This document shows, piece by piece, positions 48,030 to 64,000 of a stretch of 64,000 bases of DNA (positions within the stretch are counted from its first letter, which is position 1; every line of letters begins with the position of its first letter). The position numbers and the translations under genes are program-made. This stretch comes from an uncultured Cryomorphaceae bacterium (GTDB lineage: Bacteria > Bacteroidota > Bacteroidia > Flavobacteriales > Schleiferiaceae). Where the stretch lies: assembly GCA_937120475.1 (NCBI GenBank), contig CAKZJV010000007.1, positions 1,566,068 to 1,630,067 on the forward strand. Reading direction: 5' to 3'. The notes beneath the pieces are model-generated. The model was not told the DNA's origin. It ran no database searches and saw only the letters and a program-made list of their open reading frames with translations.

Positions 48030-50435
48030 TTAAAAAGAAGCTCTTAACGCTCCGATAAAATTGATACCGGGGGCTACAATTCCCGAAGAATAAGGCCGGT
48101 AGCGTTGATCGGTAATATTCTCCACACCCAGGTTTAGCTGCAGGTAAGGCGTAAACTGGTAGCTGGTTTTAAAATTCAGAGTGTACCAGGCCGGTGAGTA
48201 GGGATTACCGTTTTCGTCCGTGGCGTACATCCAGGGCTTATCCTGTTCAGTAGGGGCCAGGCCAGCGTTGCTTACCTCTCCATTATACACTGCGTAAAAA
48301 TCGGCTTTGAACTTTTTAATGGTATAGGTTAATCGCGCCAAACCAAACCAGGGGGCTGCGTGGCGCAGTGGTGCCGTGGTACCATTATCCAGCTCCTCTT
48401 CACCAAACTGGTAGTTATAGCGCAGCTCCGCATTCAGGTTGTAAGGCAAACGGGCATTAATACCGGCCTGGAAACCGTACACATACGCACTGGACGCGTT
48501 CTGAATGGCCTGCACCCTGCTGGTTTCTCCCCGGTAATCGATACTATCCATTCCGTTTAGGGTAAAATTTCTGCGCACCAGGGCATCGTCCAGGTAAGTA
48601 TAGTAGGCGGACACGTCCAGTTTCAAGGCCTGACTCACCACTTTGGCTACCCCCAATTCAAAATTATAAGCCTGCTCAGGTTTTAAACCCGGATTGGGTA
48701 TCACCACCTGCCGGTCACCGGAGTCGAAAACCTTACCGATGTCATCGATATTGGGAGCGCGAAAACCGGTGGACACATTGAACTTAATCATCCAGCTTTC
48801 CTGGGGCCGGTAACTGAAACCGGTGGCTGCGGTTACGGCTCCCGTGGTGAGGCTGGTGCGGGTAAAGGGCAAGGGGTAAAATGTGGTATCGAAACTTGCG
48901 GACAGATCCACCAGGTTCAGGCGCAGGCCGGTATTCCAGGTCAGTTTTTCGGTGAGATCGGCTTTCAGGTTGGCATAGGCTGCGTAAGAGTTCCAATTGG
49001 CCCCATCGGGATAGCGGGTACCGATGGGTGTTTGCTCGCCACTTTCAATATTTTCTGCAAAGGCGGTGGAACCCACCTCGTTCAATACCACTTCGGCACC
49101 GTAATACAAACCGAGGCGATCGCCAAAGCCTTTATCAAAATCGAGGTTGGCGGTGTAGGCGTTCACCTGTTCTGTGGAGTTGTTGCGTATGGGATCGCCA
49201 AAATCGCGATCGTGGCGACTTTCTTCAAAAAACTGGTAAGCCAGTATCAAACGGGCATGGTCATATAAAGCATTGGAAGCATGGTGCTCTATTTCCAGGC
49301 GATTCATCCACCATACTTGCGGACCGTAGTACCATTCAGCTGATCGTAGTTGGTCGCCCCGGTAGCGGATCAGCCGGTCATAACGCGGTACATCGGAAGT
49401 GGCGGAATAATGAAAATCGGCCTTGAAGCTCCAGAATTTATTGGGCCGGAAATGCACTTTTTGCATCAGGTTCATCTGGCTGTAGCCGGAAGGGGTTTGC
49501 ACTTCCGGGTCGGGATTGGGTACCTGTACATCTATTCCGTTTTGCCGGGTGGCGTATACGGGTCGTAAATACTCATCTGGCCCGTTGGAGCCCATGCGCT
49601 GATCTTCGTAGTCGGTATAGGTAATGCTGCTGAGGAAGGCCCACTTTTCAAACCCGAAGTTTACATCGGCATGAGCGGTTTTTTCCTGGTTGGCACTGCT
49701 ATAGCGGGTAAGGGCATTCACCTGTAGCAAAAGACTATCGTTAGGGGAAAGACTGGCATCCAGCGTATGGAAATCCATCACGCCACCGATGGCATCACTC
49801 CCGTAAATGAGGGAACCGGGGCCAAACACCACCTCGGCACTTTGCATGGCGTTAGGGTCCAGCGAGATTACGTTTTGCAAATTTCCACTGCGAAAGATGG
49901 CGTTGTTCATACGCACCCCGTCCACCACCAGTAGTATGCGGTTGGTAGAAAAACCGCGGATCATGGGACTTCCCCCACCCAACTGGCTTTTCTGGATATA
50001 CACCTCCCCGCTGGTGCCCAGCAGGTCGGCTGCAGTTTGCGGGTTTTGAAAGGCAATTTCGCGCGCCTTAATGGTGGTGATTTTATTGGGGACTTTGCTT
50101 TTGCTTTGTTCCCAGCGGTTGGCGGAAACCACAATTTCATCCAGGTCCAGGTTACCAGGTGCCAGGAAAATTTCGCGCTCTCCCCCGGTCAGTTCTGCAA
50201 AGCTGAGGTTGAGGGTTACGTAGCCGTAATAGCGCACTTCGATGTTTGAGCTATTGGCCAGGCCTTTAACATCCGCTTCGCCACGGGCATTGGTAAAGCG
50301 TATGATGTTGTTTTTATTATCGGCAATACGCACCCCTTCAATGGGTTGCAGACTTACCTGGTCTTTAATGGTGATGGTTTGGGCTTGCATACCGCAGAAT
50401 ATTATGCTTAACAAGCCTGCCCAGAATCCCTTCAT
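48030..50435 (-). CDS. TonB-dependent outer membrane receptor
   Basis: An 801-residue receptor. I start it at the ATG at 50435 (MKGFWAGLLSIIFCGMQAQ, a clear signal peptide); the open frame upstream to 50576 is not needed. A carboxypeptidase-like domain is followed by LDEIVVSANRWEQSKSKVP, the plug (TAADLLGTSGEVYIQKSQLG, MIRGFSTNRILLVVDGVRMN, FGPGSLIYGSDAIGGV) and a barrel that ends in LRASF. The FGPGSLIYGSDAIGG plug and the VRMNNAIFRSG loop are like haem or cobalamin/siderophore-type receptors; substrate not assignable. Confidence 0.9.
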   Translation of the reverse strand: MKGFWAGLLSIIFCGMQAQTITIKDQVSLQPIEGVRIADNKNNIIRFTNARGEADVKGLANSSNIEVRYYGYVTLNLSFAELTGGEREIFLAPGNLDLDEIVVSANRWEQSKSKVPNKITTIKAREIAFQNPQTAADLLGTSGEVYIQKSQLGGGSPMIRGFSTNRILLVVDGVRMNNAIFRSGNLQNVISLDPNAMQSAEVVFGPGSLIYGSDAIGGVMDFHTLDASLSPNDSLLLQVNALTRYSSANQEKTAHADVNFGFEKWAFLSSITYTDYEDQRMGSNGPDEYLRPVYATRQNGIDVQVPNPDPEVQTPSGYSQMNLMQKVHFRPNKFWSFKADFHYSATSDVPRYDRLIRYRGDQLRSAEWYYGPQVWWMNRLEIEHHASNALYDHARLILAYQFFEESRHDRDFGDPIRNNSTEQVNAYTANLDFDKGFGDRLGLYYGAEVVLNEVGSTAFAENIESGEQTPIGTRYPDGANWNSYAAYANLKADLTEKLTWNTGLRLNLVDLSASFDTTFYPLPFTRTSLTTGAVTAATGFSYRPQESWMIKFNVSTGFRAPNIDDIGKVFDSGDRQVVIPNPGLKPEQAYNFELGVAKVVSQALKLDVSAYYTYLDDALVRRNFTLNGMDSIDYRGETSRVQAIQNASSAYVYGFQAGINARLPYNLNAELRYNYQFGEEELDNGTTAPLRHAAPWFGLARLTYTIKKFKADFYAVYNGEVSNAGLAPTEQDKPWMYATDENGNPYSPAWYTLNFKTSYQFTPYLQLNLGVENITDQRYRPYSSGIVAPGINFIGALRASF

Positions 50436-50584
50436 ACAAACTAGTTTGAGCGGCAAACCTATCAAAAATCTTACCGGGAAATTTGGGGCTTTACATTTAT
50501 CCAGCTTATAAGTAAGCACGAACATGACACCTTCACTTTTCAAGCTTCGGTGCCTGAAAAACGCTTGTGCAAGCAATAGCGGTG

Positions 50585-50740
50585 ATATGGATTTTTTTTC
50601 GATCTTTTCGGTTTGTAAGCGTTTAACATTCGCTTATAAATGTTTGTAAATACTTAGCGAGCACTTATCCTTTTTAAGACATTCATTTTCAAGGTTCTAA
50701 AATCGAAAACTTAAAAAAGCGCTATTATGTTTATTCACTA
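50585..50740 (+). repeat. Conserved cassette leader, copy L1
   Basis: This stretch is homologous to 62772-62895. Shared blocks in order are a T-run plus CGATCTT, TCGGTTTGTAAG, TACTTAGC-AGC, CTTTTTAAG, ATTTTCAA, TTAAAAA-G, GCTATT and finally TTTATTCACTAGTTGT. L1 has about 30 extra bases after GTTTGTAAG. Both copies stand directly before an accessory gene. It may hold a promoter, a recombination site, or both. Confidence 0.8.
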
Positions 50741-50750
50741 GTTGTGCATA
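50741..50750 (+). repeat. Left inverted repeat of cassette 1
   Basis: GTTGTGCATA is perfectly complementary to TATGCACAAC at 51606-51615. It begins inside the last conserved bases of the leader and continues into sequence unique to this cassette. Confidence 0.85.
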
Positions 50751-50762
50751 ATTTAAAATGAC

Positions 50763-51548
50763 ATGTCAGACATTAACTTCAAAGAGAAGAAATTTTTGGA
50801 ACGACTGCTCGAGATGGGAGGAGGTTATGTCTTAGACTTCTCGAATAGAACTATGCAAGAATTCATAATGGATACAATGGACGTGGATATATATCATGAC
50901 AGGTATTCATTCAAAGGAGACTCAAAAGCTAATCGGCTTCGTTCATTTTGGGAAATTGAGTCTAATTATCATGTTGGACTATTACTTGAGAATCTTTTGG
51001 ATTATTGGCTCACTCAAATTCACACAGGAGAACGGGATTACGACTATACAGATGAAAACTTACATAAAGAGTGTTTAAAAATTGTCGAGAGACTGAAATC
51101 AGGAGGTCCTGTCGAAAATTTAGACTCAATAAAGCCAAATTCAAAAGACGAATCATTTGAGAAGCTATCAAAGTCTATAAAACAAAGTATCAATAATAAT
51201 GAGCCAGAAGTTGGAATTGACCGACTGCATACTTTCGTAACTAAATACATTAGACAGCTCTGTGAAGAACATGACATCGAGTTTCAAAAAGACACTCCAC
51301 TTCACAGTCTTTTTGGTTCATACATTAAACATTTGAAAGCTTCTGAATTGATTGATTCTGAAATGACAGAAAGGATTCTTAAATCATCAATTTCCGTGAT
51401 GGAAGCCTTCAATAAGGTGAGAAATGATCAGAGCTTCGCACATGACAATGAAATTTTAAGCTACAACGAAAGTCTTCTAATATTTAATGACATTGCTAAT
51501 GTGATCAGATTTATAGAAGCTCTAGAAAAAGAAAAACAAACCGATTGA
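50763..51548 (+). CDS. Abortive infection family protein (Abi C-terminal type), 3' end frameshifted
   Basis: A 261-residue protein as read. The N-terminus FLERLLEMGGGYVLDFSNRT and the C-terminal FNKVRNDQSFAHDNE (the RN...AH pair) match abortive-infection family proteins found in defence regions. The frame stops at 51548, but the +1 frame continues through an acidic tail EESENEDEWDLPF to a TAA at 51594, 11 bp before the cassette repeat. One extra A in the A-rich run near 51526-51540 would explain the break. The intact protein would be about 276 residues with a DLPF tip. Base composition is much more AT-rich than the neighbours, which suggests transfer. Confidence 0.75.
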   Translation: MSDINFKEKKFLERLLEMGGGYVLDFSNRTMQEFIMDTMDVDIYHDRYSFKGDSKANRLRSFWEIESNYHVGLLLENLLDYWLTQIHTGERDYDYTDENLHKECLKIVERLKSGGPVENLDSIKPNSKDESFEKLSKSIKQSINNNEPEVGIDRLHTFVTKYIRQLCEEHDIEFQKDTPLHSLFGSYIKHLKASELIDSEMTERILKSSISVMEAFNKVRNDQSFAHDNEILSYNESLLIFNDIANVIRFIEALEKEKQTD

Positions 51549-51605
51549 GAAAGAAGAAAGTGAAAATGAGGATGAATGGGATTTGCCTTTCTAAATAAAA
51601 AAAAC

Positions 51606-51745
51606 TATGCACAACATCGGCTATAGCAAATGCGGGCTGACTGCTTAAAAATGAAGATATTGCAACTAAATAAATTTACGGTAGGCGGACAAGAAAGCGG
51701 CTTCGAAATCCCGCACTTGCCATAGCCAGGGCCGTTGGCTATAAT
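51606..51745 (+). repeat. attC-like hairpin element between cassettes 1 and 2
   Basis: It begins with TATGCACAAC (right repeat of cassette 1). GGCTATAGCAAATGCGGG (51619-51636) pairs with CCCGCACTTGCCATAGCC (51710-51727): 16 of 18 positions pair, and the two exceptions are A-C on this strand, hence T-G wobbles on the other strand. The element ends in GTTGGCTATAAT (51734-51745), the left end of cassette 2. A competing 7-bp stem, ATAGCCA/TGGCTAT (51722-51728 with 51736-51742), is possible. Confidence 0.8.
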
Positions 51746-51766
51746 CCGAAAATACAAAATTAAGTA

Positions 51767-53692
51767 ATGAGCGAAAGCAAGTCCATAGATTTTCTAGTAA
51801 TAGCTGCTCTTGAAGAAGAACGAGACGCTATGCTTGATTTATTGGGAGAATATGAAAAGCTTGACAAGGAAGGTGACATATATACCACTTATCTTTCAAG
51901 TGTTAAAAGTAACCGAAAGGATAAGTCAATATTTTCCGTTGCAGTTGTATGTCCTTTAAACATGGGACCAATAAATGCTGCGACACTTGCAAATTCAGCT
52001 ACTCGCAAATGGAATCCTCAATTCGTAATTCTGATGGGTATAGCTTTGGGAGTTGAAGGAGAGGTTAATCATGGTGATGTCATGATTTCAACTCAAATAG
52101 CAGATTACACCCTAGGTAAAGTAAAAAACGGAGAACGGGCAATTCGATGGGAAGTTTTCCCATCTGGCCCATCATTAATTGATTCAGCTAACAATTTAAA
52201 GAAAGATTGGTCTGATTCTATCCCTAAGAAGCATCCTGCAAATAAAACATGTTCAAAGTTTAAAGGGGTTATTGCATCTGGTGGTGACGTGATTTCAGAC
52301 GACCAAGTAATCTCCTCCTATTCAAAGAACTGGCCTAAACTAATTGGCATTGAAATGGAATCTGGTGGCGTAGCATCTGGAGTCTATCAAACCCCAAGCC
52401 GCCCTGAATTTATAATGATTAAGTCTGTTTCTGATTTTGGTAAGGATAAACACGACCCTGAAGTGCTTCCTTTCAGAGCTTACGCTTCATACAGTTCTGC
52501 TACGTTCGTTTTAGAACTTATCAAAAGTGGACCTGCAACAAGCATTACTAAGTCTGTCTCTATTAAAGCTGACAAAGAAAATAAGAATGAAGAGCTGAAA
52601 CGAGCTGAAAGGCGGTGGGCATATATTCAAAATCATGAAATTCAAAAATTCGAATTCAAGTTTTTGCTTAAAAATGAAGTTGGTAAAGATTGGTTGCTAG
52701 GGGCTTTTAAAGATATTCGAGTCTTTATTTCAAGAGATAAAAAAGGGCTTAGTCTTCAAGACATTCTTTCATTGAGTGAAAAGCCCAATACGATAAAAAG
52801 CCTTAGAAAATTAGAAAAACCGATTTCATCATTTTGGCAACTATATGAAAAAGAAACAGGTTTTTGGTGTAAACGAATAAAACCTCTATCAGAAATACCT
52901 GAACTTGTTGCAGGTTTTGACTGCGAATTTCCTTTTAGTCTTTTAGAAGAAAACAAGTTGACGTTACAAAATCTTGCTGAACATGATGATATAGGTGTTT
53001 CTTTTCCACCAAGTGTTTTTCAAGCAGGTATAGAAGAGATTATGTTCACAATCTCTGGAGATTCTTTTCATTTTCCAATTTATATATCAGATGAGAAATC
53101 ATTAGATATGTATCACACAATGGCAGCAACCTTTCAAGGTATTTCCCAAAAACAAAGTGACCCAATCAATTTCGCCTTTGGATATCAAGGGTTTCAACTT
53201 CTAGAAATGTTTCATGAACAAACCTTACCTAGAAAAGAAGACGAGAAAAAATTTGAAAAAAGAAGTCCACTTGGCGCTCAATCTGGTCCAAATGGAATTT
53301 CTATATCATTCTATCCTTCAATACCAAAATCTTTCAATAAAAGTGAAGAATCAAAAGAGTATTCTTTTACATTTCAAAACAATTTCATTAATTACAGTAA
53401 AATAGAAAAAGAATTACGTTCAAAAATCGAAAGTGAGAGCTATGAAAGGCAAGATTTTTTGAACTTATGCAGCCTACTATCAGTGCAGCATAGATTCAGT
53501 GAATTATTGGAAATGGTAAAAACAGAAGAGAACTTAAACGGTGAACTTCCAAATGATATGTATGGTTTTAGAGGAAGCCCCCCGCTGGCGCGAGCGTCAC
53601 GCTCGTGCCCTTCACTACAACCAGATATAAATACCGTTTTGAATGGTCAAAAACCCCTTCTAAGCGTAGTGCCCACTACGCTTGGGTATTGA
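51767..53692 (+). CDS. Nucleosidase/phosphorylase-superfamily domain protein, probable defence effector, C-terminus altered by repeat
   Basis: A 641-residue protein. Residues 7-255 match the MTA/SAH nucleosidase-purine phosphorylase fold: FLVIAALEEERDAML, the GIALGVEGEVNHGDVMIST strand, GIEMESGGVA (E196-E198 region) and KSVSDFGKDK (D223) carry the ribose-binding and catalytic residues. Residues 270-600 are a large domain that I do not recognise. Such nucleosidase domains joined to other domains occur in predicted anti-phage systems. From about residue 605 the frame runs into a REP-like repeat and low-quality sequence (ending TTLGY), so the natural C-terminus is lost. It is AT-rich like the gene before it and lacks its own leader. 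Confidence 0.78.
   Translation: MSESKSIDFLVIAALEEERDAMLDLLGEYEKLDKEGDIYTTYLSSVKSNRKDKSIFSVAVVCPLNMGPINAATLANSATRKWNPQFVILMGIALGVEGEVNHGDVMISTQIADYTLGKVKNGERAIRWEVFPSGPSLIDSANNLKKDWSDSIPKKHPANKTCSKFKGVIASGGDVISDDQVISSYSKNWPKLIGIEMESGGVASGVYQTPSRPEFIMIKSVSDFGKDKHDPEVLPFRAYASYSSATFVLELIKSGPATSITKSVSIKADKENKNEELKRAERRWAYIQNHEIQKFEFKFLLKNEVGKDWLLGAFKDIRVFISRDKKGLSLQDILSLSEKPNTIKSLRKLEKPISSFWQLYEKETGFWCKRIKPLSEIPELVAGFDCEFPFSLLEENKLTLQNLAEHDDIGVSFPPSVFQAGIEEIMFTISGDSFHFPIYISDEKSLDMYHTMAATFQGISQKQSDPINFAFGYQGFQLLEMFHEQTLPRKEDEKKFEKRSPLGAQSGPNGISISFYPSIPKSFNKSEESKEYSFTFQNNFINYSKIEKELRSKIESESYERQDFLNLCSLLSVQHRFSELLEMVKTEENLNGELPNDMYGFRGSPPLARASRSCPSLQPDINTVLNGQKPLLSVVPTTLGY
53583..53608 (+). repeat. 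REP-like palindromic repeat, copy 1
   Basis: A 26-bp sequence identical to 63910-63935, with a core palindrome GCGAGCGTCACGCTCG. It lies in the last part of the nucleosidase-domain gene. Similar repeats in Bacteroidota are associated with REP-linked tyrosine transposases; no such transposase is in this window. Confidence 0.85.
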
Positions 53693-53720
53693 ACTCATAC
53701 AGATGGTCCATCCTTCGACT
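53654..53720 (+). repeat. 67-bp direct repeat, copy A
   Basis: It matches 55157-55223 with about six mismatches. Both include the palindrome AAGCG(T/C)AGTG(C/T)CCACTACGCTT followed by TATTGAAC-CATACA-ATGGTCCATCC. Copies A and B bracket the metallopeptidase gene. The rest of 53693-53965 holds low-complexity repeat debris (a GACAG...CTCAGGATGACG run) and no gene. Confidence 0.85.
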
Positions 53721-53965
53721 GCTGGTTCGACAGACTGCGCCATCGCTGAAGCTAAGGCGTAAGCAATCACCACACAGGCTCAGGATGACGAATAAGTAAA
53801 GGACCTTGTCGGGCGGGCAAGAAGTCCAAGTGCGACCGATCTGATCTAATTCTTTCACACTTCTTTAGCGGTATTTAACAAAGCCTTGGCTTTTTCAGGG
53901 GCATGAATTCCCTATGTTCGTATGGGATTTAGATAATTCCGCTTGAAACCCTAAAAACAAAACCC

Positions 53966-55081
53966 ATGAAATACTGCATTGGCCTGCTTCTGCTGTTTAG
54001 CGCTACCCATTCTTTTGCACAATCCCAACTTTCTCAAAGCGGAACGGATTGCACCTTTATTCTGCCCTGGGAGTGTGAAACTTGTACTTTTAAATGGAGT
54101 GGTGACTGCGAGAACAAACTACCGGAAGGAAAAGGGATTTTGACCGTTTTGAATGAGGGTAACGAGATTATGCGCTATGAAGGGGAAATGAAAAACGGAA
54201 AGTTTGACGGTGAAGGAAAATACCGTGATGCTATGAATGAACTGGAAGGAAATTTTGAGCAAGGTGCTTTTCATCCGGACAATTCCTTCATTACCAGCCG
54301 CAATACGCGCCTGGACACCACACGGTTTAACAAAACGAATGACTGGGAGCCACAAACTTTGGTAACCAAACAAATAGACAACTTTTACTTCACCTTTCCG
54401 GCCAGCGGTTACGCTTATGACCACCGGGAAGAGCTGACCCAAAAATGTCTGGAAGCTTTTAAACAAAACTGTGCGTTAATCCATGATCCAGACTATACCG
54501 AATTCACCCGGATACGCTTTGTAACTTCTAAAAACGAGGTGTTGCTTCATGCGAATCTCTACGTGAGTAATATGGCCGACATCCAAAGCCAATCTCTGTA
54601 TATGCTGGTTACTGATCAAAAGGTAAATGGTATGGCACGTACCAATCCCCCGATAACACACGAAGCCATGCACCTGGTAGCCATGACGGCCTGGGGGCCA
54701 CCTCCCACGAACAACAACTGGTTGAATGAGGGCCTGGCCACTTATGCCCAAAACAATTGTTCCGGTTATTCCGTAGCTGAAATATATCGTTACTTTTTAG
54801 AGACAGATAGGCTGGTACCCCTGGAATCTCTGGCTCACCAATTTTACCAAACGGAAGAGATGATCAGTTACCATCAATCCGCTTTTGTGGTGGAATACCT
54901 GATTTCCAAATACGGCATACCCAAACTGGAAACTTTCTGGAAAAATGGCTTTCAGAGCTTTGAAAGTGTGTACGGTATCAACCCATCTCAATTGGTAGCC
55001 GCAATGAAAGATGTTGTTCTGGAGCAACACCCTCACTCTCCAGCCATTGACTGGGAAGTATTGAAAAGCGGATGTGAATAA
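53966..55081 (+). CDS. Secreted gluzincin metallopeptidase-like protein with MORN-type repeats
   Basis: A 371-residue protein with a signal peptide (to about residue 19, SFAQ). Residues 45-100 contain MORN-like repeats (YEGEMKNGKFDGEGKYRD). A zinc site HEAMH near residue 232 (HExxH) and a third ligand in NEGLATY about 20 residues later identify a gluzincin, as in the M1/peptidase MA group. Several cysteines in the mature N-terminus (CTFILPWECETCTFKWSGDC) may form disulfides. Substrate unknown. It stands between two copies of a 67-bp repeat. Confidence 0.82.
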   Translation: MKYCIGLLLLFSATHSFAQSQLSQSGTDCTFILPWECETCTFKWSGDCENKLPEGKGILTVLNEGNEIMRYEGEMKNGKFDGEGKYRDAMNELEGNFEQGAFHPDNSFITSRNTRLDTTRFNKTNDWEPQTLVTKQIDNFYFTFPASGYAYDHREELTQKCLEAFKQNCALIHDPDYTEFTRIRFVTSKNEVLLHANLYVSNMADIQSQSLYMLVTDQKVNGMARTNPPITHEAMHLVAMTAWGPPPTNNNWLNEGLATYAQNNCSGYSVAEIYRYFLETDRLVPLESLAHQFYQTEEMISYHQSAFVVEYLISKYGIPKLETFWKNGFQSFESVYGINPSQLVAAMKDVVLEQHPHSPAIDWEVLKSGCE

Positions 55082-62771: not shown

Positions 62772-62895
62772 ATTGGATTTTTTTCGATCTTATCGGTTTG
62801 TAAGTACTTAGCAAGCCATTAAGCCTTTTAAGGTACTTATTTTCAATTCATTAGAATTAAGCACTTTAAAAAGGTGCTATTGCGTTTATTCACTA
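62772..62895 (+). repeat. Conserved cassette leader, copy L2
   Basis: The partner of 50585-50740; the last 16 bases, TTTATTCACTAGTTGT, are identical in both (running to 62900). It contains a small hairpin (AGCACTTT / AAAGGTGCT region at 62860-62880). It ends 49 bp before the cassette gene. Confidence 0.8.
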
Positions 62896-62905
62896 GTTGT
62901 AGGGC
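62896..62905 (+). repeat. Left inverted repeat of cassette 3
   Basis: GTTGTAGGGC pairs perfectly with GCCCTACAAC at 63792-63801. The first five bases equal those of cassette 1; the last five differ. Confidence 0.85.
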
Positions 62906-62944
62906 ATTAGAAACAGATACAGAACAATGATAAAATGAACCATT

Positions 62945-63790
62945 ATGACAGAAAAGGAAATAACAGAGTTAATTGTTAATCATATTTCTGAAAACCTATT
63001 TAAGGTAATTGGATTAATATTTACAGTTTTAGGAGTGATTATTTCTTCAACTTGGTTTGTTTGCAAAAAATGGTTTCAAAGAGAAATTAAGCATCTGCGT
63101 GATTCTAAATCATCTGAATGCAATATATTAAAAGAAAGAATTGAATACTTAACTCAAAAGCTGCAAGACAATAATTCCTATGCGAAAGGCATTATAGAAG
63201 TTGCGAAACATCAACTTTTGGAGGAACGAAATGAGATAAAGTCAATCGAAGACAATGAATTAGTTTCTGAGTATGAAAATAAAATTGCAAGAATAACCCA
63301 GAATTATAATGACCAAATAAAAATATTAACAGAAGAAAAGGATACTCTATATAATTTACTTAAAAAGTCTAAGATTGAAAAAACAGAAATGCTGGATAAG
63401 TTATATACTTTGGTGCTGTATTCGGAAAAACTTAATTATAATAAAGATTTTAAGTATCACATAAATCTTTGTTTTAATGATTTATCTAATAACCAGAATG
63501 ATTCCAACTTCTATTTCACGTATTCAAGATTTACTTTATTATTATCTACCTACATTATTCATTCATTTGAAATATTAAAAAAGGATAAGAAGAAGCTTGA
63601 TTTTAAGTTTTTTAACAATCGTTTGGACAATCTAAATCATACAATAAAAATTATCAAACCATTTATGTATGATAATGATAGCGATAACCCTCAGTTAAAA
63701 TCTTTAATAGATAAAATTAAAAAATCGCTTAATGATTTAAATGATAAAGGGAATGACAAAGAAAATATGGAAGATGAGGAAAAAGAATAA
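62945..63790 (+). CDS. Membrane-anchored coiled-coil protein, cassette cargo
   Basis: A 281-residue protein. One membrane helix at about residues 20-40 (VIGLIFTVLGVIISSTWFV) is followed by a long charged coiled coil (about 45-155) and a helical C-terminal region with a very acidic/basic end (NDKGNDKENMEDEEKE). The codon use is strongly AT-rich, unlike neighbouring core genes. Its stop TAA is one base before the right inverted repeat. No family recognised; the location in a cassette suggests an accessory, possibly defence, role. Confidence 0.7.
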   Translation: MTEKEITELIVNHISENLFKVIGLIFTVLGVIISSTWFVCKKWFQREIKHLRDSKSSECNILKERIEYLTQKLQDNNSYAKGIIEVAKHQLLEERNEIKSIEDNELVSEYENKIARITQNYNDQIKILTEEKDTLYNLLKKSKIEKTEMLDKLYTLVLYSEKLNYNKDFKYHINLCFNDLSNNQNDSNFYFTYSRFTLLLSTYIIHSFEILKKDKKKLDFKFFNNRLDNLNHTIKIIKPFMYDNDSDNPQLKSLIDKIKKSLNDLNDKGNDKENMEDEEKE

Positions 63791-63791
63791 C

Positions 63792-63906
63792 GCCCTACAA
63801 CAAATAAATATACGTAATGCGGGGTGATTTGCTTAATTTGAGTTTTCGAGCAATTAATAAGCAAAGTAGCGGTTTGTTAGTGAAATGCCCTGAAATCCCG
63901 CACTAC
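63792..63906 (+). repeat. attC-like hairpin element of cassette 3, right half interrupted
   Basis: It begins with GCCCTACAAC. GTAATGCGGG (63814-63823) pairs with CCCGCACTAC (63897-63906) with a single A-C mismatch at the same place as in the element of cassette 1. An inner stem, TTTGCTTA / TAAGCAAA, is visible. The sequence that should complete the outer right arm is replaced by the REP-like repeat at 63910. Confidence 0.75.
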
Positions 63907-63909
63907 CCT

Positions 63910-63935
63910 CGCTGGCGCGAGCGTCACGCTCGTGC
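63910..63935 (+). repeat. REP-like palindromic repeat, copy 2
   Basis: Identical over 26 bp to 53583-53608, directly after the truncated hairpin of cassette 3. The remaining 65 bases to the window end show no gene. Confidence 0.85.
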
Positions 63936-64000
63936 TGCAACCCTACTAAAAGTATAGCCGTACCTTTCCATTGTGAGCCGTAAGTATAAATTTCACGATA

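Follow-up and report, generated by a model that had tools for sequence, protein, structure and literature searches.

Covarying ends of cassette genes in a Schleiferiaceae genome are probable halves of integron-type attC sites linked to an IntI-related recombinase without the additional domain

In the 64-kb stretch of DNA analyzed here (64,000 nucleotides of an uncultured Cryomorphaceae bacterium, referred to as the window), two genes are each enclosed by an inverted repeat whose inner bases are specific for that gene, and the question is what makes the two ends of each gene match. The arms of cassette 1 are GTTGTGCATA (50741 to 50750) and TATGCACAAC (51606 to 51615), those of cassette 3 are GTTGTAGGGC (62896 to 62905) and its complement (63792 to 63801), and one open reading frame (ORF) is enclosed by each pair. 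A sequence-only reading had described these inverted 10-nt arms with cassette-specific inner bases and had considered ten matches to be beyond chance, and we confirmed both points: no further perfect 10-nt inverted pair beginning with GTTGT has a spacing of 150 to 1,500 nt in the 64-kb window, and the expectation from 100 first-order Markov sequences is 0.08 per strand. The agreement extends past base 10 in both cassettes, since positions 12 to 14 also match (TTT in cassette 1 and TTA in cassette 3), while position 11 presents an A on the 5′ arm and a G on the complement of the 3′ arm. A third GTT pair of the window (4300/4575) was rejected, as it is without attC features by eye and 2.6 GTT pairs per strand are expected by chance.

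In cassette 1, a long imperfect palindrome (GGCTATAGCAAATGCGGG ... CCCGCACTTGCCATAGCC) comes after the 3′ arm, which lies downstream of the gene; next comes GTTGG, the start of cassette 2. This layout (arm, palindrome, and next GTTGG) is the anatomy of an integron attC site (Table 1). For cassette 2 (GTTGGCTATA at 51734), no matching 3′ arm was found within the 64-kb window and no attC was found behind the ORF, whose 3′ portion extends into a REP-like repeat at 53579. The protein of cassette 3 matched no Pfam or PADLOC family at an E value of ≤0.01, and an Rfam search of positions 50400 to 54000 gave no match at an E value of ≤0.5.

Table 1. Positions of the cassettes, leaders and attC elements in the window
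Feature	Positions	Strand	Similarity or profile match
Cassette 1 leader, putative orphan attI-like site, ending in GTTTATTCACTA just before the crossover GTT	50588..50740	+	77% identity to the second leader over 107 nt, plus 32 nt at 94%
R′ (5′ arm, cassette 1): GTTGTGCATA followed by A (position 11) and TTT	50741..50755	+	
Cassette 1 gene, 261 aa, abortive-infection C-terminal domain (Abi_C)	50763..51548	+	PF14355, 42 bits versus cut-off of 24
R″ (3′ arm, cassette 1), with GTTGTGCATAGTTTT as reverse complement	51601..51615	+	
L″ box of cassette 1 attC: GGCTATAGCAAATGCGGG	51619..51636	+	
L′ box of cassette 1 attC: CCCGCACTTGCCATAGCC; against L″, two A.C (top) = G.T (bottom) positions	51710..51727	+	
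5′ end (R′) of cassette 2: GTTGGCTATA	51734..51743	+	
Cassette 2 ORF, 641 aa as read, nucleoside-phosphorylase-type defence protein	51767..53692	+	PF01048; PADLOC PDC-M60C, 104 bits
Cassette 3 leader, second copy of the putative orphan attI-like site	62774..62895	+	
R′ (5′ arm, cassette 3): GTTGTAGGGC followed by A and TTA	62896..62910	+	
Cassette 3 gene, 281 aa	62945..63790	+	
R″ (3′ arm, cassette 3), with GTTGTAGGGCGTTAT as reverse complement	63787..63801	+	
Remnant attC of cassette 3: GTAATGCGGG ... CCCGCACTAC	63814..63906	+	Partial profile match at 63816-63905, E 0.0023

The scan of genome contigs with a pattern of the R″ end and the L″ box returned 82 stretches; among the 80 titles listed, most were Bacteroidota, and some were Chlorobiaceae-labelled and other records. 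Together with the loci of the family, 83 sites were collected. The arm test started from 84 sites, of which 71 had enough upstream DNA, and the partner of each 3′ arm was taken as the best GTT-anchored match 150 to 2,500 nt upstream. At least six of the seven inner bases were matched in 44 of the 71 sites, compared to 4.2 expected with the arms of other cassettes; five off-targets (L121, L138, L149, L163, and L181) are still among the 71, none of them reached six of seven (44/66 without them), and they were excluded from all tabulations after this test. Two sets of cassettes, overlapping in part, were then tabulated: 47 cassettes chosen on positions 4 to 9 alone (46 by script and cassette 3 by hand, with L150 possibly a chance match), and 85 distinct cassettes chained behind recombinase genes, chosen on 9 matching bases (87 before the removal of duplicates). 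Position 11 is an A on the 5′ arm in 47/47 and 85/85 cassettes, respectively, and the complemented 3′ arm shows a G there in 34 and 65. At the unselected positions 12 to 14, the arms match in 77/79/64% of the 47 cassettes versus 41/38/30% of non-cognate pairs, and in 85/79/76% of the 85 chained cassettes versus 47/34/33%.

The tabulation of both arms in more cassettes, which the sequence-only reading had proposed, thus went largely its way, with 63 different inner hexamers among the 85 chained cassettes, although 27 of the 71 sites fell short of six of seven bases. Its constant outer GTTGT did not hold: 47 of the chained cassettes have A and 38 have G at position 4, position 5 varies among G (47), T (27), and C (10), and therefore only GTT plus a purine is constant. 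Independent change of the arms was examined in two pairs of homologous cassettes with differing 5′ arms. In the first (L131/L145, 80% identical), the arms are GTTAGTGCC and GTTGGCGCT, each perfectly matched by its own 3′ arm, with positions 4, 6, and 9 changed on both arms; in the second, the L113 copy is without a matching 3′ arm and looks decayed. The pattern matched three times in viral contigs, where no attC body could be seen by eye, and Kovacikia minuta, used as a canonical control, yielded no cassette by this method.

The matching of the arms is within the cassette and not between neighbours, as the neighbouring halves that face each other across an integrated attC agree in 58/49/38/33/45/40% of cases at positions 4 to 9 (n = 139). 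Furthermore, 15 distinct pairs have a cassette in common (78 to 100% identical over at least 85% of the length, for example, 99.25% identity over 933 nt), while the 60 nt to the left are 20 to 55% identical; the query began at the GTT, and 158 of the 180 matches, self matches included, were set aside for a similar left flank.

In our opinion, it is very probable that the arms are the R′ and R″ halves of an integron-type attC, that the cassettes are moved by an IntI-related recombinase without the additional domain, and that the window carries an orphan, decaying version of this arrangement; what the sequences provide for it is the covariation, the attC architecture, the chaining behind a recombinase, the shared cassettes with different neighbours, and a genome with no enzyme of the group. 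In the excised circular cassette, R″ (...YAAC) and R′ (GTTR...) would lie at the two ends of one attC, and the cassette-specific bases would pair and close the outer stem of a bottom-strand DNA hairpin. A tyrosine recombinase would cut beside the GTT and insert the cassette behind attI or behind another cassette, and this integration would separate the two attC halves, so that in the chromosome the ends of one cassette would match each other and those of neighbours would not. We infer from these patterns both the recombination chemistry and the exact position of the cut at the GTT. The pairing put forward by the sequence-only reading is retained for the cassette-specific inner bases, whereas pairing across the integrated gene is unsupported because the arms would be the ends of a single attC, a site made whole only when the cassette is excised as a circle; its proposal of strand exchange between matching ends finds support.

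Calculated folds were compared for 44 reconstituted sites, 3 of the 47 cassettes having been skipped. The bottom strand is the more stable in 43/44 of them (mean of −30.4 versus −26.3 kcal/mol), and on this strand, the reconstituted circle sites beat the integrated hybrids in 44/44 cases, by a mean of 8.4 kcal/mol, a gain that is partly built in because matched arms were selected. Four of the five displayed folds have unbroken stems, and that of L117 has one mismatch. The integrated attC of the window is unexceptional with respect to shuffles (z of −1.46, with 15/200 shuffles as stable).

The L′ partner was found in 77/81 sites, and their 18-nt L stems align without gaps when up to six mismatches are allowed. 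Of the 197 mismatches in these 77 stems, 156 form a G.T wobble on the bottom strand, 12 form one on the top strand, and 29 are of other kinds; in particular, 75 of the 77 sites have A/G at position 12 and 74 have it at position 7. The sites belong to one sequence family. Among 71 distinct L 14-mers outside that family, oriented by the shorter left spacer, 49 carry A/G at position 12, 29 carry it at position 7, and 6 have any G/A. With a coarser alignment of the stems, the chained cassettes display a weaker wobble bias (78 bottom, 33 top, and 52 other), and T/C recurs at their position 3 (22 cases), opposite to the bottom-strand bias. Extrahelical bases gave no sign in the L box of the one sequence family, and 12 single extra bases occur further out, at arm columns 10 to 14 of the 47 cassettes. 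In the arms, the invariant A opposite C corresponds to a G.T wobble on the bottom strand, and the pairing continues beyond it.

This strand asymmetry argues for a single-stranded bottom-strand substrate of recombination, which we likewise infer, and against an RNA stem around the gene serving transcript stability or regulation, one of the structures that had been suggested for these arms. Each pair of arms does flank one gene, and the transcripts could pair; on the transcript strand, however, the invariant position is mostly an A opposite C and the wobble is available solely on the other strand, the 3′ arm runs on into a palindromic body outside the gene, and the similarity of shared cassettes is lost left of the GTT. 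An RNA stem has, in our estimate, almost no probability. A symmetric DNA cruciform, also suggested earlier, is at odds with the same A.C (gene strand) and G.T (other strand) asymmetry and with the better folding of the bottom single strand.

The cassettes found elsewhere are associated with a recombinase gene. In 11 of the first 19 loci, a 9-nt arm lies 30 to 181 nt past the recombinase stop codon and its complement 590 to 1,192 nt further on, before a site, and the same 9-nt arms are present in 0 to 2 of the 18 other loci. Out of 60 recombinase ORFs, 31 are followed on their own strand by a chain of one to seven cassettes that begins 30 to 240 nt past the stop codon, compared to 0/60 on the opposite side; the 60 include Xer-like proteins, contig-end cases, and one contig taken twice (L223 and L321, with two hits and two misses). 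The strict test gave no cassette for 29 ORFs; some of these are Xer-like or lie at the end of a contig, but they also include full-length cases in long contigs (e.g., L291, L292, L295, and L296), which count against the proposed link. The cognate Bacteroidota enzyme would accordingly be a tyrosine recombinase related to IntI that lacks the additional domain, and its gene would lie directly upstream of the cassettes on their strand, in the order recombinase, attI, and cassettes. As a candidate element of a promoter Pc that would read into the cassettes, the motif TAnnTTTG, the Bacteroidota −7 box, occurs at most 110 nt upstream in 9/31 loci, compared to 1.4 in shuffles and 2 on the other strand. 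Regarding distribution, 120 of 395 sampled Bacteroidota genomes match the recombinase group at an E value of ≤1e−60, and 17 of 31 regions chosen from this sample head cassette chains.

Two side observations concern the recombinase-proximal junction. By eye, direct and inverted repeats (e.g., TGTCATACATAT) lie between the recombinase stop codon and the first GTT in L220, L299, L230, L298, and L309, and they resemble attI binding sites, as which they are putative. In L225 and L232, the same cassette start occurs at this junction and later in the array, which suggests a recent duplication or reinsertion.

Profile searches covered 44 genomes, reached through 45 loci (L181 being off-target) that were a chosen subset of the loci. 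A TIGR02249 match at an E value of ≤1e−20 was obtained in 42/44 of them versus 4/14 control genomes, and in many of the 44, a tyrosine recombinase matches this profile in two stretches, with a gap around positions 180 to 238. TIGR02249 is below its cut-off in 8/8 Bacteroidota recombinases, NF040815 (XerA_Arch, "site-specific tyrosine recombinase/integron integrase") exceeds its own in 5/8, and PF00589 and PF13495 were detected in the nine different recombinases scanned with Pfam. In a 34-row alignment, the columns of the additional domain are empty in 26/26 Bacteroidota recombinases and filled in 4/4 canonical IntI proteins. The Bacteroidota enzymes share with IntI (VchIntIA, PDB 2A3V, and IntI1) the SAM-like and catalytic domains and an IntI-like C terminus; different from IntI, they are without the additional domain and present an N-terminal extension. 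With XerA, XerC, and XerD they share sequence and fold family, but they adjoin cassette arrays, and in the tree, which was sampled with four Xer rows and no other tyrosine recombinase families, they are grouped with IntI apart from the four Xer proteins (100/100). In the same tree, IntI is nested inside the Bacteroidota recombinase group (93/86), on long branches. IntI relatives from phages were identified and set aside.

VchIntIA residues 183 to 246 remain unaligned to the recombinase of L225, which has 21 residues there. The contacts to extrahelical bases listed for VchIntIA in PMC3053210 are K209, Y210, W219, P232, H240, H241, and also Q145 and W157; six of these eight fall in the unaligned stretch, with Q145 and W157 outside it. 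As for the N-terminal extension, Pfam HARP (PF07443) was matched below its cut-off in one protein (E value of 0.002), and one low-confidence AlphaFold model predicted a beta-beta-alpha-beta-beta-alpha arrangement. The model has a pTM of 0.47 and three aligned rows, and its fold matches (4A8E and 5HXY at the top, 2A3V third) therefore give weak support. It was also observed by eye that the N termini of L219 to L238 (e.g., L223:8991-10367:-) contain one to three copies of modules such as I.F.yd..lI..iK.l...rWs...k.W.iP.

These features bear on whether the cassettes could be ordinary integron cassettes moved by a canonical IntI with the additional domain, the Bacteroidota sites being mere acceptors or relics. 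The overall logic (cassette, palindromic attC, and GTT crossover) is indeed that of the integron, and a canonical IntI over the TIGR02249 cut-off was identified in one of the 44 genomes, a Chlorobiaceae-labelled metagenome-assembled genome (MAG). However, the other 43 are without one, the arrays start directly behind the non-canonical recombinase, and the T at position 5 of the window arms does not fit GTTRRRY, so that we consider this explanation very unlikely. A Chlorobiaceae-labelled MAG (G111, L189, found via L125) contains a canonical IntI, two-stretch tyrosine recombinases, and a site of the attC family of the window, and the canonical and the Bacteroidota-type systems may coexist in it.

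In the genome of the window, no match to a recombinase of the Bacteroidota IntI-like group was found (the assembly is 99.92% complete, in nine contigs), and therefore its cassettes are orphan in this assembly. The best match to the recombinase profile reaches 190.8 bits, inside the band of 173 to 208 bits typical of most genomes of the family, and is read as XerD. Matches of at least 291 bits occur in 30/88 genomes of the same family, including the congener G002, behind whose recombinase gene (L313) no cassette was found; in G016, G017, G018, and G037, of the same family, the recombinases head chains of 2, 2, 6, and 1 cassettes, respectively. A further cassette of the window's genome (G000:C7:855235-855377) has a related attC body, 84% identical, and the arms GTTGTGCGT. 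A 98-aa ORF (L086, 6499 to 6795, minus strand), by eye a C-terminal piece of an AraC-type regulator, adjoins that genome's other cassette pair, and the regulator gene may have been disrupted by the insertion region. The loci of the window thus appear to be orphan, decaying cassettes, two of which carry defence-type genes: besides the two attI-like leaders, the window would comprise a defence-type cassette whose attC is complete, a truncated second cassette, and a third with an attC interrupted by a REP-transposase element.

This last element occupies positions 63907 to 64000 of the window, continues in L089 (2475 to 3133), has 29-nt perfect inverted repeats, and encodes a 183-aa REP-associated tyrosine transposase (NF047646, 93 bits; PF01797); a 97% copy of its repeat is located at the end of cassette 2 (53579 to 53608). 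The arms could on these grounds be taken for transposon ends, of an IS200/IS605-like or REP element, considering that such a transposase adjoins cassette 3 and that such elements use hairpins. Against this, the REP element has inverted repeats of its own and interrupts the attC, and the cassettes stand in consecutive chains behind another enzyme; we attribute practically no likelihood to transposon ends.

The two leaders are alike over most of about 120 to 150 nt, and each adjoins a different chromosomal gene. No third copy was found at an E value of ≤0.001 across the window's genome, and none in two congeners; a partial match at G000:C7:1183851 (E value of 0.0127) was rejected, being by eye the upstream region of another gene. 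A/T-rich ends that by eye resemble the leader ends precede some of the first cassettes behind recombinase genes. We regard the leaders as attI-like, with a presumed attI role. It is also conceivable, even if rather unlikely, that the window loci are single cassettes inserted at chromosomal sites other than attI (attG-like), the leader being host sequence. The genome with no match of the recombinase group and the occurrence of two copies only, each beside a different gene, would agree with such insertions, whereas the similarity of the leaders is more than independent targets would have, and their ends have the counterparts elsewhere just mentioned. An empty site for the window loci was not found, as G002 has a different neighbour and G001 is without a match to the downstream gene.

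Compared to class 1 and chromosomal integrons, the system shares one gene plus a palindromic site per cassette, the GTT crossover, ends that are the two halves of one attC, the better folding of the bottom strand, and tandem arrays of up to seven cassettes beside a recombinase. Different from them, the Bacteroidota core is GTT plus a purine and departs from the canonical GTTRRRY/RYYYAAC, the 18-nt L stems are gap free in 77/81 sites without sign of extrahelical bases and fixed G.T wobbles mark the bottom strand, and the array is colinear with the recombinase. Long arms were discarded as a unique trait, because in R100 the arms of aadA1 (GTTAAACATCATG on the 5′ side and GTTAGACATTATT as the complement of the 3′ arm) likewise match past the 7-bp core, with a difference at position 5. 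A CALIN consists of at least two attC sites with no integrase nearby. The window cassettes resemble a CALIN or a lone attC in having no matching recombinase in the genome, but the window has one complete and one broken attC, leaders precede cassettes 1 and 3, and the cognate enzyme would not be a canonical IntI. From the sequence comparisons, the system seems to work like an integron that departs from the canonical family in two of its defining traits (the additional domain and GTTRRRY) and would belong beside that family by enzyme descent and cassette logic.

Integron surveys identify the integrase by the additional domain (PMC9668308; PMC2426708, which also accepts the intI patch), and intI was found in the Bacteroidetes/Chlorobi group (PMC2426708). 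In the passages of the IntegronFinder 2.0 paper on this phylum, a complete integron within Bacteroidetes proper is given only for Salinibacter ruber M1 (PMC9024848), and a review counts Bacteroidota among the phyla with integrons (PMC8618304). No description of such a Bacteroidota system was found in the open literature by titles and abstract openings, bioRxiv and most subscription papers not being covered.

It is possible to hypothesize, tentatively and with less than even confidence, a branch of integrons proper to Bacteroidota and frequent among them, in which the recombinase lost the additional domain of IntI or never possessed it, the polarity of the site is given by fixed G.T wobbles and not by extrahelical bases, and a long, cassette-specific outer stem checks that the two ends are of the same cassette. 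If canonical IntI is truly nested in the Bacteroidota group, the additional domain and the extrahelical bases would be a later invention. The role of both also becomes a directly testable question. With the recombinase group matched in so many genomes of the phylum, searches based on that domain would overlook a large pool of mobile genes, whose cargo in this window includes defence-type genes.
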